A stretch of DNA of 64,000 nucleotides, taken from IMG/VR virus record IMGVR_UViG_3300010413_000010, positions 34,635 through 98,634 of that record; one strand, written 5' to 3'. Within the stretch, counting starts at the first letter, position 1, and every line of letters begins with the position of its first letter. This document shows positions 16,089 to 56,580 of this stretch, one piece after another. The DNA is from a virus. Below the pieces are notes generated by a model, which did no database searches, was not told the origin of the DNA, and saw nothing but the letters and a program-made list of their open reading frames with translations. The position numbers and the translations under genes are program-made.

Positions 16089-16328
16089 TTATAATTCGTC
16101 GCAGTAGATCGGAGTTCGTTCCCCGTAGTAGGCTCCGGCGATGTTGTAGTCGAAGTAGTCAATCGCGTTATCAATCCCCATGTCTTTCTCAAGCTGGGAG
16201 ATTATTCTGTTGGAGGAGTAGATGAGCCTTTCATTTTGTATATCAACACCAATGATGGCATCGTCGCGCCCAGTAAGAAAAACGAAAGGAATTCCAGGGT
16301 AACGGTCTTTTACATCTTGGATTGTCAT
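16089..16328 (-). CDS. Hypothetical small protein
   Basis: 79 residues (MTIQDVKDRYPGIPFVFLTG...). It has a beta-hairpin-like N-terminus and a C-terminus ending AIDYFDYNIAGAYYGERTPI. Similar small hypothetical proteins occur in other phages. The start overlaps the nrdJ stop (TAATG), so it is translated with the reductase. Confidence 0.55.
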   Translation of the reverse strand: MTIQDVKDRYPGIPFVFLTGRDDAIIGVDIQNERLIYSSNRIISQLEKDMGIDNAIDYFDYNIAGAYYGERTPIYCDEL

Positions 16329-19165
16329 TAGGTTACCTCACACCCCCCGCCACCACAGGCAGCTTCGGCTTGGAGACTGGTTGTATCTGCATCTTCAATC
16401 ACTTGGGTGAGATCAATCTGTTTAAGAACCTCGACGCGTTTTTCGAACTCTTCCTTAGAAATATCTTCAAAAGGAGCCTGAGTGTATGTCCCGCCATCAT
16501 AAGGAAGAACAGAAATAGCAGTGAAGTCTTCCCGGTTATCCCACATCCACTCCGCTACTTCAGCCCACTCGTCAGGCCGAACACTGATTGTGCAGGAGAC
16601 GTTATTCCGGTTGTCACCTTCTACATGACCGGGCTTCACCCACTCCACGTTGAAACGCCGTACCCGGCGTAAGGTGCCCAAAGCGGTCTCAGTTCTCAGA
16701 ACGGCATGATCAGGAGCCTTCTGAGGTACAGTGATGACGGCCATAGTCTCCGGCCGAAACTTCTCATCCTCGACGAGCTCAGGGTGGAGGAGAGATAAGT
16801 AGCTGTAGATAGCTTCGTTCTTCCCGACCCGGATACGTCTGAGATAGTAATCATTGTGCCAAGCATGGACCCCGGAGGAGGTTCCACATACCAACGAAGC
16901 AGTTCCTTCGGGCTTGATCGCTGTAGTTCTGGCAGCAGGATTGATGCCAATAGCATGAGCAGTAAGGGTGTTCATATCCTTTACTTCTTTTGCAACCGTA
17001 GCCAGGTCAAGGTTGTCTACCCGGCCGGAGGCGATGCCAGTCATGGATACGCCGATGAGGGCTTCCTCTTCTGTTGTCTCCTTCCACTTGGCTCCAAGAT
17101 AATGGAAGTCAGTGTAGGATGCTTGAAGGGTCGCAATGAAGGATGCAGCCCGAGCTCGTTTATTGAGATCGTCCTGATCCTCAACATCGGAAGCATTGAT
17201 GGTTACGAGATTGCAAAATTGATGGCTACGGAGAGAAATTTCCCCGCACGGATTAAGCCCCCAGTCCGTGTTGTCAGTGAACATCACACCAGGCTCTCCA
17301 GCACCAGAGGCTTTCACACGATCCCAGACTTTAAGGAATTCTTCCTGGGTGATCTTATTTCTCTCCATCACAACGGTGTTGTTAGCTCGTCCACGGTGGG
17401 AGTGGAGTTCCCACCAGTTGCCGGACTTACAGGTCAACATCTCGTAATCGTCGAGAGAGAAGAGGGAGATCATTGCTGCTCTACGAATCGTTTACCCCTA
17501 CGTTTCCATAGGGAACGGACTATCTCTTAACTCTTCTGAGCCTCGGATTTCTTGGAGAGGTTATTGTGTCGTCTACTCACTCTCTAGTCTCTGAACCTTC
17601 CTGTTACTTTTATGACGTTCACAGGAGTGGTAACGGATTGCCATATCGTTAGACTTAGGTTTCCCGTTTTAACCCGATTAGGTGGCCTTCGTAGTTTAGG
17701 CAGCAGGTTGGAGAGCGGCTTTGTATTCGTTCAGAAACATCGACGCTTTCCTTTGTTTTCTATGATTGAATAATACAGAAGGCTCGGCATAGAGCCATTC
17801 GACAAACGCAGCAACCCGCGCCATGTTACCAAACTTCAAGTCGTAACAGGCTTCATCCCTACGAGGGCGCACGGTCGTAGCAATGTTTAGCTCCTCTTCC
17901 ATAATCCTTTGTATAGAGGATAAGAACTCGAAGCTGCTGTGGGTGAATCCAATATTTGCCCAAAGCCGGTCCCGGTCTTTCCGGTGCCCATAACTTATAT
18001 GACCGTCCGCATCGAAGAACCCACGGAGATAATGCCTCATCAGGTTCCGGGGGATATTCACAATCCTTCGGTCGTTTTTCAAACCCAACACACCATACTT
18101 ATTGAAAAGAGGGGAAAATTTAGAACTAAAGGCTAGTGTTGCAGTTTTTTTCTCCGTCTTAATGTTGTACTTCTTGTTGATCGTTACTTTATAATTAACT
18201 GCTGTGTCGGGGCAGTATAAGCGCTGAAACATTTCAATAAGATATGTATCCACAGAACTCACACTGAGACGGGCTTTGCGTTTATGAGTAGGTTGATTAA
18301 AAATACCATCCCCGGCTAAGTAGCCGATGAGGTAGGCAGACTCTGGGTCGAGTTTGTCGAAAATATTCAATCTGTATTTCTTTGCATTTATAAGATACTC
18401 TTTCATTTCTGATTTTCTCCTGTATTATGTTATTTAGAGCTGACCACCAGCTAAGACGGCATCTGCCAGATGGCACTGGATGTCGTGGACCTCGATGGGT
18501 TTAAGTTTCGTTCCAGAACCTCGCTCCTGAAGGGCCGTCTCGAAAACATTTTTAACCTGAACTAAAGCTTCCCTGAGAGGTTCGGGGCCGGGTGCTTTCC
18601 CTCCCGAGGTTATGAGCTCGGCACCTTTCGGCCGGATAGATCGAAAATCGAAATCGATTTCATTCTTTCCATAAAAGTAGGATTCTACCAGGACACGAAT
18701 AGCTTCGGCCCAGCCTTCAATGGAATCCGGGATGAGGTAACGCTTTCGTCGATTTTTGTTCACACCTTGAACAGTAGGCAGGGCTGCTACATGCTGCCGC
18801 TGTACCGAGTACCCAACGCCGGTTCCAGATAAAAGGAGGAACATCGTCTCCCAAAACACACTGGGGTCATCCGCGTTTCGGAATGAACAGTTATATAACC
18901 GCACAGGGTTAACCTCGATGGCCTGTCCAGCGAACTGGATCGATCTCATAGAAGGGAGGATTTTCTTTGGTCGGACATAGACCTCATAGGCCAAGTCGAT
19001 TTCGTTTTCAAGTTTCGGGAATCGTTTCAAGTGCATCGCCTTGTTGCGATCCACGATTTCATCCCAGGTCTCTCGTCTTTTTTTAATTGGCAGGTATCGG
19101 GCATACTTCATGAATGCGGTTAAACCGCTGAGGATATCCCGAGCAAGCTGCTCCTGTGTAAGCAT
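16328..19165 (-). CDS. nrdJ: Class II (B12-dependent) ribonucleotide reductase, interrupted by a group I intron
   Basis: Joined from exon 1 (19165-18443) and exon 2 (17488-16328), giving 627 residues. The start is ATG 19165 behind AAGGAGCTAAT. Exon 1 carries the N-terminal region with LYNCSF (Cys93) and ends ADAVLAGG. Exon 2 begins IRRAAMISLF, which restores the family sequence across the junction. Exon 2 carries the radical/substrate motif NPCGE (about 320-324), Cys333 in QFCNLV, and the C-terminal redox pair CGGGGCEVT that a thioredoxin reduces. The enzyme makes deoxyribonucleotides without oxygen or an R2 subunit, using adenosylcobalamin. Without splicing, exon 1 ends after three intron codons. 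Confidence 0.9.
17489..18442 (-). other. Group I self-splicing intron in nrdJ (954 nt)
   Basis: The borders follow group I rules: exon 1 ends in U (GGU) and the intron ends in G (AAACG) before AUUCGUAGAGC. Precise removal restores LAGG-IRRAA. The 3' part on the minus strand has core-like elements: AATCGGG..AAACCTAAGTCTAACGATATGGCAATCCG (P4-P6/P3 region, read in pieces), then GTTCAGAGACTAGA and AGAGATAGTCCG, the usual P7/P3/P8 signature. An open reading frame for a homing endonuclease fills the middle. Confidence 0.85.
17696..18406 (-). CDS. LAGLIDADG homing endonuclease, intron-encoded
   Basis: 236 residues with two LAGLIDADG helices: LIGYLAGDG (about 26-34) and LRGFFDADGHIS (about 127-138). 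It is therefore a single-chain two-motif enzyme of usual length. It would cut intron-less nrdJ alleles near the insertion site and drive intron homing into co-infecting phages. It lies inside the intron on the same strand, starting 37 nt after the 5' splice site. Confidence 0.9.
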   Translation of the reverse strand: MKEYLINAKKYRLNIFDKLDPESAYLIGYLAGDGIFNQPTHKRKARLSVSSVDTYLIEMFQRLYCPDTAVNYKVTINKKYNIKTEKKTATLAFSSKFSPLFNKYGVLGLKNDRRIVNIPRNLMRHYLRGFFDADGHISYGHRKDRDRLWANIGFTHSSFEFLSSIQRIMEEELNIATTVRPRRDEACYDLKFGNMARVAAFVEWLYAEPSVLFNHRKQRKASMFLNEYKAALQPAA

Positions 19166-34550: not shown

Positions 34551-34809
34551 GCACACCTCCGACCCGGACTCTATACTTCCGCGCTTTACAGTCAGCCTGA
34601 ATCCTCTCCCAGACCAACCATTCAGTTGTTGCACGGCGCGGAGAGATCAGGTCTTTATAGACAGCTCTCCAGCCACCGTCGTGCCAATCAAGCACCTTTG
34701 GCACCCATACGTTTCCAACTCTCTGTATCCGAAATCGCACACCTCGGTGTGACATTTCAGATACCTCCTTCTCTGTACCTTTAATTGTGATGGTCTTTCG
34801 TCGCCACAT
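34522..34809 (-). CDS. Hypothetical basic protein
   Basis: 95 residues (MWRRKTITIKGTEKEVSEMS...), basic, Trp-rich in the middle (VWVPKVLDWHDGGWRAVY). GGGAG precedes the start. It is the first gene of the leftward operon below the operator region 34.9-35.0 kb. No family recognised. Confidence 0.5.
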   Translation of the reverse strand: MWRRKTITIKGTEKEVSEMSHRGVRFRIQRVGNVWVPKVLDWHDGGWRAVYKDLISPRRATTEWLVWERIQADCKARKYRVRVGGVRELTLKVSA

Positions 34810-46253: not shown

Positions 46254-47162
46254 CTACTCAGACTTTATCAGACCAATGCTCTTGAGATACTTCTCAGTAG
46301 CAGTGATTGACTTGTGATTCAGTAACCGACACACTTTGTACAAATCTGTAGTGCGTTTATAAATTTGTACAGCAAAGTAGTGCCGGAAGCTATGGGCATG
46401 GTATCGGTACTCAATCTTGCCAGCCTCTTCCAGAGCGCCCATATACCGAGCAAGGTCGTTTTGAATGGTCTTCTTTTTCAGGTTAGCAAAGGGCTGTTCC
46501 TGAGATAAGTCGTATCCACGGGCTTCAATCGGAGCCCGGCACTTATCGGGGAAGTGACCAGTAACAGTCCGTCCACCCTTCACTATCGTTGTGTAGACAT
46601 CGCCGTTCAGTTTTATCTTCTGTATCTCCGCGACCCGGAGACCGGTATTTATCATTACCAGAGTTGCCACATAGGTGTGATCAGTTTTTATCCCGGCGAG
46701 AATGGTCTCGATTTCGTCTTCCCGAGGAGCGGTTTGTTCACGAACCGTCTCCATCTTGGGGACTTTTTTAGTACCTGAGAAAGGATTAAACCGGAGGTAG
46801 TCGTATCTGATAATCAGGTTGTATAAACCGCTGATAGCTGCCACGTGTAGCCGGACCGTTGAGGGAGACCTTTCTTTGCTCAGAGCAACAAGGTAATTAT
46901 CAGCATCTCTGGCCTTTACATCCAGAACATGATCAAAGGAGTTGAGGAACCGCTTCAGGCCGTAGCTGTAAGTCTCCCAAGTCTGAGGCTTCAGGCTTTC
47001 TTGATACTCTTTTAATACCTCATTGAGATTGAATTGAGCTTTCTTCCTGGCATGTTGCTCCTTTTCAGTAGCTTCCTGCAGATCGGCGTTAACCACTGCT
47101 GCCTTAGCAATTTTCTCATGGTAGTCAGTCAGGTCTTTGGAATTATCAAGAAGTTCAGTCAT
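46254..47162 (-). CDS. Tyrosine recombinase (XerC/D-like)
   Basis: 302 residues. Complete catalytic set: Arg176 (TGLRVAEI), Lys195 (VKGGRT), His257 and Arg260 (HSFRHYF), His283 (LNHKS), Tyr292 (TEKYL). N-terminal SAM-like core-binding domain about 43-125. It can integrate the phage or, since the element has Rep and Par, resolve multimers as Cre does for P1. Own promoter at 47186-47214 and repeats just behind it. Confidence 0.85.
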   Translation of the reverse strand: MTELLDNSKDLTDYHEKIAKAAVVNADLQEATEKEQHARKKAQFNLNEVLKEYQESLKPQTWETYSYGLKRFLNSFDHVLDVKARDADNYLVALSKERSPSTVRLHVAAISGLYNLIIRYDYLRFNPFSGTKKVPKMETVREQTAPREDEIETILAGIKTDHTYVATLVMINTGLRVAEIQKIKLNGDVYTTIVKGGRTVTGHFPDKCRAPIEARGYDLSQEQPFANLKKKTIQNDLARYMGALEEAGKIEYRYHAHSFRHYFAVQIYKRTTDLYKVCRLLNHKSITATEKYLKSIGLIKSE

Positions 47163-55799: not shown

Positions 55800-55820
55800 T
55801 CAAAAACAGACTGCAACACC

Positions 55821-55983
55821 GGACAAGGCTTAGGCTGGTAAAACCAGAAATGTCCACTATCAGGCTTGGAAAAGAGGGAGTCGAGAGACGCGAGACCTAA
55901 ATGCCAAGAGTGGTAAATCCAGGTAGGAAGCGAGTGGGTGACCATGCAGTCTTTTACCACTGTAGTTCGCTACAGTGGTTTTA
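55821..55983 (+). ncRNA. Candidate structured RNA with terminator/antiterminator architecture
   Basis: Helices visible: GGACA/TGTCC (55821-55855) enclosing CTGG-TAAAA-CCAG; CTTGG (55865-55869)/CCAAG (55904-55908) enclosing a GTC-GAGA-GAC hairpin; and AGTGGTAAA (55909-55917)/TTTACCACT (55953-55961). The last helix shares bases with the 10-bp terminator stem at 55956-55979, so only one of the two can form, as in riboswitches or attenuators. No coding frame. It lies 3 nt upstream of the tmRNA-like RNA. Confidence 0.5.
55956..55982 (+). terminator. UUCG-capped intrinsic terminator
   Basis: ACCACTGTAG (55956-55965), TTCG, CTACAGTGGT (55970-55979), then TTT. Competes with an upstream pairing (see the structured RNA). 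Confidence 0.75.
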
Positions 55984-55985
55984 CG

Positions 55986-56063
55986 GGGGCCGAGAAGGGT
56001 TCGATCTGGACTAAAGCCTAAAAGGACAGTCCAGGGACGGGGGTTCGATACCCCCCGGCTCCA
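55986..56063 (+). ncRNA. tmRNA tRNA-like domain without mRNA part ('mini-tmRNA')
   Basis: 78 nt. Acceptor GGGGCCG (55986-55992) pairs with CGGCTCC (56056-56062) including a G3-U70 wobble, the alanine identity element, with discriminator A. The next 13 nt contain GGGTTCGAT, the tmRNA D-loop signature, and form no D-stem. A 7-bp P2-like helix CTGGACT (56006-56012)/AGTCCAG (56028-56034) carries only a 15-nt loop where a tmRNA has its tag frame and pseudoknots. GGACGGGGGTTCGATACCCCC forms the T-arm as in tmRNA 3' ends. There is no anticodon. Either a degenerate phage tmRNA or a stand-alone alanyl-accepting RNA. Confidence 0.6.
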
Positions 56064-56126
56064 TACTCCTCCGGGAGCCTCTTAAAGTATGTTTCCGAGG
56101 GTGCTGCGTTGCTCACCTTCGGAGAT

Positions 56127-56198
56127 GCCGAAGTAGCTCAATTGGTAGAGACACGGATCATAGTTCCGGGAACGAGGGTTCGATCCCCTCCTTCGGCG
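56127..56198 (+). tRNA. tRNA with unusual anticodon loop, possibly Met/Ile (CAU)
   Basis: Acceptor GCCGAAG/CTTCGGC perfect, D-arm GCTC..GAGA (one mismatch), T-arm GAGGG-TTCGATC-CCCTC, discriminator G. The anticodon stem CGGA/TCCG closes on loop TCATAGT, so position 33 would be C and the anticodon ATA. If the closing A-T pair opens, T precedes CAT as in tRNA-Met. Either a shifted loop or decay, so decoding is uncertain. Confidence 0.75.
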
Positions 56199-56211
56199 AG
56201 AATCTTATCAC

Positions 56212-56295
56212 GCCACCATGTTGGAACTGGTAGACATCACGGTCTTAAAAACCGTGGGCCGAAAGGCCGTCCGGGTTCGATCCCCGGTGGTGGCA
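56212..56295 (+). tRNA. tRNA-Leu (UAA)
   Basis: Acceptor GCCACCA/TGGTGGC, anticodon stem ACGGT/ACCGT with loop CTTAAAA (anticodon TAA), long variable arm GGGCCGAAAGGCCGT (class II), T-arm CCGGG-TTCGATC-CCCGG, discriminator A. A regular tRNA-Leu reading TTA. Confidence 0.92.
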
Positions 56296-56483
56296 GTTAT
56301 TTTTACCAACCGTTTAAGGCTGGTCTTTTTTCAAAGGCCGGAAAGACTTTCCAGCCTTTATTAAAATCTTCGATACTATAGAGGTTGCCGGTTCCAGGTA
56401 TACCCGAATCCGGTCGGACAAAAACCTGCAGGTTTTGTAGGTCAGTGGGAACACTGGTGTCACCCCTTTGAGGGTGGCTAACG
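56296..56483 (+). other. Structured spacer between tRNAs
   Basis: No gene. Inverted repeats: AAGGCTGG (about 56315)/CCAGCCTT (about 56351); CCGGTTC/GAATCCGG near 56389-56413; AAAACCTGCAGGTTTT near 56421-56437; CAGTG-GGAA-CACTG near 56443; CACCC/GGGTG near 56461. It could be one folded RNA or remains of tRNA genes. Confidence 0.4.
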
Positions 56484-56556
56484 TCAGCGGTAGCTCAGAT
56501 GGTAGAGCACTCAACTGATACATGAGAGGTCAGGGGTTCGATCCCCCTCTGCTGGC
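56484..56556 (+). tRNA. tRNA-Ile (GAU)
   Basis: Acceptor TCAGCGG/CTGCTGG (two wobbles), D-stem GCTC/GAGC, anticodon stem CTCA/TGAG with an A-A mismatch at the loop, loop CTGATAC (anticodon GAT), T-arm AGGGG-TTCGATC-CCCCT. CCA not encoded. Confidence 0.85.
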
Positions 56557-56580
56557 AAATCCTAAAAATTGAGGTAATTT

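Follow-up and report, generated by a model that had tools for sequence, protein, structure and literature searches.

The 78-nt RNA and its elements

The window analysed here, a 64,000-nucleotide stretch of viral DNA (positions 34,635 to 98,634 of the IMG/VR record IMGVR_UViG_3300010413_000010), contains a 78-nt RNA gene upstream of a tRNA cluster (Table 1). The preliminary description of this DNA had presented the RNA as a stand-alone tRNA-like domain (TLD) of transfer-messenger RNA (tmRNA), and inspection of the sequence found every element that it had listed, each in the place it had given. The acceptor comprises 7 bp with a G3-U70 pair, the P2 helix likewise 7 bp (CTGGACT/AGTCCAG), and the 15-nt loop contains a mini-hairpin of 3 bp. 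The acceptor, P2 and T arm are kept in the minimum free energy fold (-38.3 kcal/mol, equalled by 1/200 dinucleotide shuffles). CCA is not encoded, A73 being followed by TAC, and the nearby genes for tRNA-Tyr and tRNA-Leu lack it as well.

Table 1. Positions of the RNA unit, its elements and the adjacent tRNA genes in the window
Feature	Position	Strand	Evidence
TLD-only tmRNA-like RNA gene, 78 nt	55986..56063	+	RF00023 52.4 bits; model R1 77.7 bits
Acceptor 5' strand GGGGCCG including G3	55986..55992	+	sequence; G3 in 96/96 family members
Stem-less D region AGAAGGGTTCGAT, TTCGAY core (TTCGAT in the window)	55993..56005	+	sequence; aligns with RF00023 D region
P2 5' strand CTGGACT	56006..56012	+	fold; family covariation in P2
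15-nt loop in place of tag frame and pseudoknots, AAAG-CCT-AAA-AGG-AC mini-hairpin	56013..56027	+	fold
P2 3' strand AGTCCAG	56028..56034	+	fold
GGAC linker and 5-bp T arm GGGGG-TTCGATA-CCCCC	56035..56055	+	RF00023 alignment
Acceptor 3' strand CGGCTCC with U70, then discriminator A73	56056..56063	+	sequence
tRNA cluster (Tyr, Leu, Ile), downstream of the unit, same orientation	56126..56557	+	ARAGORN, RF00005

The tmRNA model RF00023 matched the unit with 52.4 bits (gathering threshold 47) over model positions 1-374, of which 308 are deleted and replaced by the 15 nt that close P2. In this alignment the tag reading frame, the resume codon and the pseudoknots PK1-PK4 are absent from the unit. Two other readings, that the unit is a normal tRNA or that it is a fragment of a split or permuted tmRNA with its partner nearby, can appeal to the position of the unit in a tRNA cluster and to the permuted tmRNAs that other phages commonly have and that made up some of the matches in our pattern scans. 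ARAGORN, however, called neither a tRNA nor a tmRNA at 55986-56063, the best clan match was tmRNA and not RF00005, and the D stem and anticodon arm of a tRNA were not found. The permuted tmRNA model RF04321 reached only 19.8 bits on the unit against a cut-off of 47 and had no match in the whole record, a sequence of 98,634 bases in which the unit is the single real RF00023 match and in which no full, permuted or split tmRNA was found elsewhere. Moreover, P2 is closed by a short loop, and a second strand is therefore not needed. Both readings are extremely improbable.

Family, covariation and alanine identity

Relatives of the unit were sought with sequence patterns that required GGAC and TTCGAY, and the conservation of both motifs in the family is thus partly imposed. 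A stricter first pattern for TLD-only units gave no matches. The working pattern allowed 20-50 nt from the D region to GGAC, by which full tmRNAs were excluded, and it found nine viral contigs, with TLD-only units at loci L004, L005, L006/L009, L008, L010 and L012. At least 120 matches each were obtained in a second scan of viral contigs, in a third that required an encoded CCA and in a scan of genome_contigs, the last with few TLD-only units among the matches listed. A structural parser, which required the 3' pattern, all 7 acceptor pairs and 5 or more of the 7 P2 pairs (the P2 condition being failed by only 7/156), extracted at least 156 units from viral contigs and a few phage and genome matches, at least 118 of them distinct and at least 96 non-redundant (below 92% similarity). 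These totals are lower bounds, and the viral contigs may be fragments. Among the matches listed, to which the family counts below also refer, the units are 70-95 nt long, with a mode of 79 nt.

In the 96 non-redundant units P2 is paired in 598/672 cells, against a shuffled mean of 290. P2 and the T stem together reach a covariation score of 0.985 in 91 units (0.180 when shuffled), and the signal collapses when the partners are slid by 1-3 columns. In a same-length subset without the window unit, 98.3% of cells are paired and the covariation score is 0.842, against 0.157. The MAFFT alignment of the 91 units misplaces the 5' strand of the acceptor because the D region varies in length; therefore, acceptor pairing was counted by the structural parser and on the same-length subset. 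Counted in this way, pairs 4, 5 and 6 vary across several Watson-Crick types in a compensating manner. A covarying family without the mRNA part, which had been set beforehand as a test, thus exists, with covariation in the acceptor, P2 and T stems. A covariance model (R1), built from the same-length subset and hence without the window unit, recognised that unit with 77.7 bits (E 2.3e-15), while the nearest tRNA, the neighbouring tRNA-Tyr, scored 21.3 bits and recognised ends of full or permuted tmRNAs about 34 bits or less. An A-rich stretch and a CC..GG tip in the P2 loop recur in at least 54/96 units.

Several candidates were set aside. Many genome-scan matches and the matches with ATTCGATGAAG are permuted tmRNA ends or other sequences and not TLD-only units; they were removed by the 7-bp acceptor requirement. 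ARAGORN also called three tmRNAs near units, which appear to be chance calls with implausible tags. As separate observations, L018, L040, L074, L077, L092 and similar loci probably hold genes of permuted tmRNAs; their 5' end, ATTCGAT, comes after a TATAAATA-like sequence (T4 late promoter type) or AAATA. In Streptomyces phage TunaTartare (L015, 754-1532) a tmRNA match extends over 779 bases and encloses an endonuclease VII open reading frame (ORF), as though an intron or insertion had split it, and in Gordonia phage GMA2 (L144, 1842-1898) a Pistol ribozyme (RF02679, 56.8 bits) lies in a tRNA array downstream of a full tmRNA.

The determinants of alanine identity are invariant. G3, which the second and third scans left free, is present in 96/96 units, whereas U70 and A73, also present in 96/96, were imposed by both. 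When position 70 was required to be any base but U, the same pattern gave no match in viral contigs, and it gave none when position 73 was required to be any base but A; the matching positive control, a U70/A73 pattern of the same format, gave at least 120. Invariance of G3-U70 and A73 alongside variation of the other acceptor pairs is what would be expected if alanine charging is important, and alanylation of the TLD-only units seems, from these sequences, to be under selection. CCA is encoded in 44/96 units, a figure raised by the one scan that required it.

These observations bear directly on the suggestion that such an RNA is a passive sponge, which would titrate SmpB and need neither charging nor entry into the ribosome. 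According to PMC4131195, titration of this kind may explain why a molecule similar to the TLD of mycobacteriophage DS6A inhibits tmRNA 'whether or not chargeable'. A pure sponge, however, would need neither G3-U70 nor A73, which are invariant while the other acceptor pairs vary freely, and the encoded CCA, even with the figure so raised, points to use of the 3' end. Titration alone is therefore considered improbable.

Carriers and genomic surroundings

Several cultured phages carry a unit that is not annotated: Streptomyces phages LuckySocke, GiJojo, pSt2308, BRock, Alone3 and Shaeky, Pontimonas phage phiPsal1 and Stenotrophomonas virus Jojan60. In the first five the unit stands in tRNA arrays, flanked in those read by tRNA-Val and by a tRNA-Ser or tRNA-Cys gene; in Shaeky it is flanked by tRNA-Phe and -Leu. 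A tRNA lies within 1 kb of the unit in 27/96 cases. In phiPsal1 the unit is flanked by the prohead protease and major capsid genes. At nine loci (L022, L041, L042, L057, L065, L076, L115, L119 and L136), the phiPsal1 locus being included, the unit is close to one shared protein family, annotated in phiPsal1 as major capsid protein; its genes share the strand of the unit and start at a median distance of about 120 nt from it. For this group a placement in a late operon, possibly also touching mRNA processing, is indicated. The proteins that flank the units form 43 context clusters without mutual links, a number best taken as a rough upper estimate, as many contigs are short.

Among 32 carrier records, the window record included, genes for an RF-1-domain protein or for AlaRS (PF01411) were found in 0/32, and SmpB was likewise found in 0/32 carrier records; the 98,634-base record itself has no match to any of the three. 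The partners of the RNA would therefore all be supplied by the host. Two phages combine a unit with a complete tmRNA. The 123.6-kb phage G007 (locus L032) contains, besides a full-length tmRNA of 392 nt (77588-77979), a TLD-only unit (46486-46564). Streptomyces phage Riptide has an annotated tmRNA with the tag ANSKFAFALAA and a diverged unit (L339, 1477-1553), in which GGTTAGAT replaces TTCGAC and TGAA replaces GGAC; this unit keeps a perfect acceptor with G3-U70 and scores 54.3 bits with R1.

tmRNA genes are common integration sites, and the window record has one tyrosine-recombinase gene, so a decayed tmRNA, an attachment-site remnant or a functionless chance fold had to be weighed. The recombinase domain (PF00589), belonging to an integrase or similar protein, lies at window positions 46281-46724 on the minus strand (80915-81358 of the record), about 9.3 kb from the TLD, and only 5/32 carriers have an integrase gene. 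Both halves of the TLD are retained, unlike in an attachment site. Decay is also difficult to reconcile with more than 100 distinct covarying relatives that stay compact at 70-95 nt in at least several dozen gene contexts, and the coexistence in G007 and Riptide speaks against decay of a single tmRNA. Judged by the covariation, decay or chance folding appears largely refuted, and this explanation as a whole is very unlikely.

Next to the unit, the gene called tRNA-Tyr (56126-56199) has the unusual anticodon ATA and a C replacing U33; it is possibly decayed or odd. On the 5' side, positions 55808-55983 fold into a structured RNA closed in itself (GACTGCA...TGCAGTC) and, after it, a TTCG hairpin of 10 bp whose short U run stops 3 nt before G1 of the unit. 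The stretch has a fold z-score of -2.4 and no Rfam match, and the folding is compatible with a possible separate small RNA with its terminator. The idea that the part at 55808-55957 is a displaced mRNA module was rejected, because the TLD is closed in itself and nothing in that part matches Rfam. Elsewhere in the window, a Group I intron (RF00028, 71 bits) occupies 17496-17782 on the minus strand, adjoined by an ORF at 16328-17473 (minus strand) that by eye is ribonucleotide reductase-like. The protein relatives of the window are very distant (about 22% identity), no close relative of its DNA polymerase is encoded in the viral contigs, and a similarity search of named phages with the unit gave no match over most of its length.

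Proposed function and comparison with known systems

The reading preferred here, at a probability of roughly 0.6, is that the unit is a phage-encoded tmRNA of the DS6A type, reduced to its TLD, which would act as a charged dead-end competitor of host tmRNA. The features by which AlaRS, EF-Tu and SmpB would recognise it are present in the sequence, together with the lack of a template; no SmpB gene or tag module was found in the record. The transcript would be matured by host RNase P and, as CCA is not encoded in the window, by the host CCA-adding enzyme, and then charged by host AlaRS through G3-U70. Host SmpB and EF-Tu would bring the alanyl-TLD to ribosomes stalled at mRNA ends, where it would rival host tmRNA for SmpB and for the empty A site. 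The nascent chain would be accepted by an RNA with no codon to resume on, which would block host tagging. The RNA is predicted to be expressed, given its CCA and charged, and to benefit the phage through inhibition. In vitro, TLD and SmpB suffice for ribosome entry, alanine transfer and mRNA-free polyalanine synthesis, the chain passing between successive TLDs (PMC2481249, PMC3929946). A molecule similar to the DS6A TLD strongly inhibits tmRNA in E. coli, as reported in PMC4131195 and PMC11915505. From such published molecules, the window unit may be expected to enter ribosomes, to transfer alanine without a template and to inhibit tmRNA, and the idea of a decoy or inhibitor, already put forward in the preliminary description, has an experimental precedent in a similar molecule.

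Three points weigh against this competitor model. The terminator-like hairpin at about 55954-55983, directly upstream, means that transcription of the unit is not assured. Inhibition regardless of charging, as reported in PMC4131195, makes charging dispensable for this effect, and the strict conservation of the alanine signals then needs another reason, perhaps competition for the A site or a tag-less use. Finally, G007 and Riptide have a full tmRNA of their own, which a plain shut-off of trans-translation would harm unless timing differs.

The tag-less use can be formulated as an alternative in which the alanyl-TLD, together with SmpB, relieves the stalled ribosome of its nascent chain and adds one or more alanines without mRNA, resulting in release or C-terminal alanine tailing and not in inhibition. 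It would be consistent with the polyalanine synthesis observed in vitro, with the conservation of tag-less mitochondrial tmRNAs together with SmpB (PMC11915505), with the invariant alanine identity of the phage units and with the coexistence in G007. On the other hand, the unit has no stop codon and there is no known release step, an RF-1-domain protein is encoded in 0/32 carrier records, and the TLD-like RNA studied in E. coli inhibits tmRNA, according to PMC4131195. This alternative is possible but unlikely. Its broader form is more doubtful still: TLD-only RNAs might be widespread tools by which phages add alanine without mRNA via host SmpB, extending or releasing nascent chains as an RNA counterpart of RqcH alanine tailing, beyond the blocking of tmRNA.

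Summarizing, the DS6A example had been described as a curiosity, and more than 100 distinct sequences from environmental viral contigs can now be placed beside it. Given this breadth, interference with ribosome rescue, or its reuse, looks like a common and mostly unannotated phage strategy. That the alanine identity never varies speaks against simple titration of SmpB, as guessed in the literature, and can be put to the test; the cultured carriers (Streptomyces, Pontimonas and Stenotrophomonas phages) bring experiments within reach.

The kind of molecule is already known. The preliminary description knew of no such reduced form, which did not hold: a TLD-only tmRNA that is, by the published description, of the same form occurs in mycobacteriophage DS6A (tmID 11587; Mao et al. 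2009, via PMC4131195 and PMC11915505), and the tag is likewise missing from mitochondrial tmRNAs and from those of two plastids (PMC11915505). Like the DS6A RNA, the window unit is phage-encoded and in one piece, without tag and pseudoknots and in a record without SmpB; it belongs to a different phage and has its own P2 and tip sequence. With full-length tmRNA (RF00023, those of phages included) it shares the G3-U70 acceptor, A73, the stem-less D region, P2, GGAC and the T arm, whereas the tag reading frame, resume codon and pseudoknots are absent. The tag-less mitochondrial tmRNAs and the approximately 65-bp tmRNA of Mallomonadaceae plastids resemble it in keeping the TLD without the tag coding sequence (PMC11915505); however, the mitochondrial genes are usually permuted, while the phage units are in one piece with a closed P2 tip. 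Permuted two-piece tmRNAs (RF04321) of Samunavirus and marine phages have the same acceptor and T-arm sequences and were matched by the same scans, but they consist of two strands from a permuted gene with the coding piece present, in contrast to a single closed piece. The closest engineered counterpart is the TLD of the SmpB crystal structure 2CZJ (5' 25 and 3' 34 residues), closed by a UUCG loop (PMC3929946) as the phage TLD is by its short loop; that fragment is man-made, whereas the phage units occur in nature and have a longer P2 and a tip that forms a mini-hairpin. Relative to the cited literature, what is new is the breadth of the family, its unannotated cultured members, the coexistence with full tmRNA and the sequence evidence that alanylation may be under selection.
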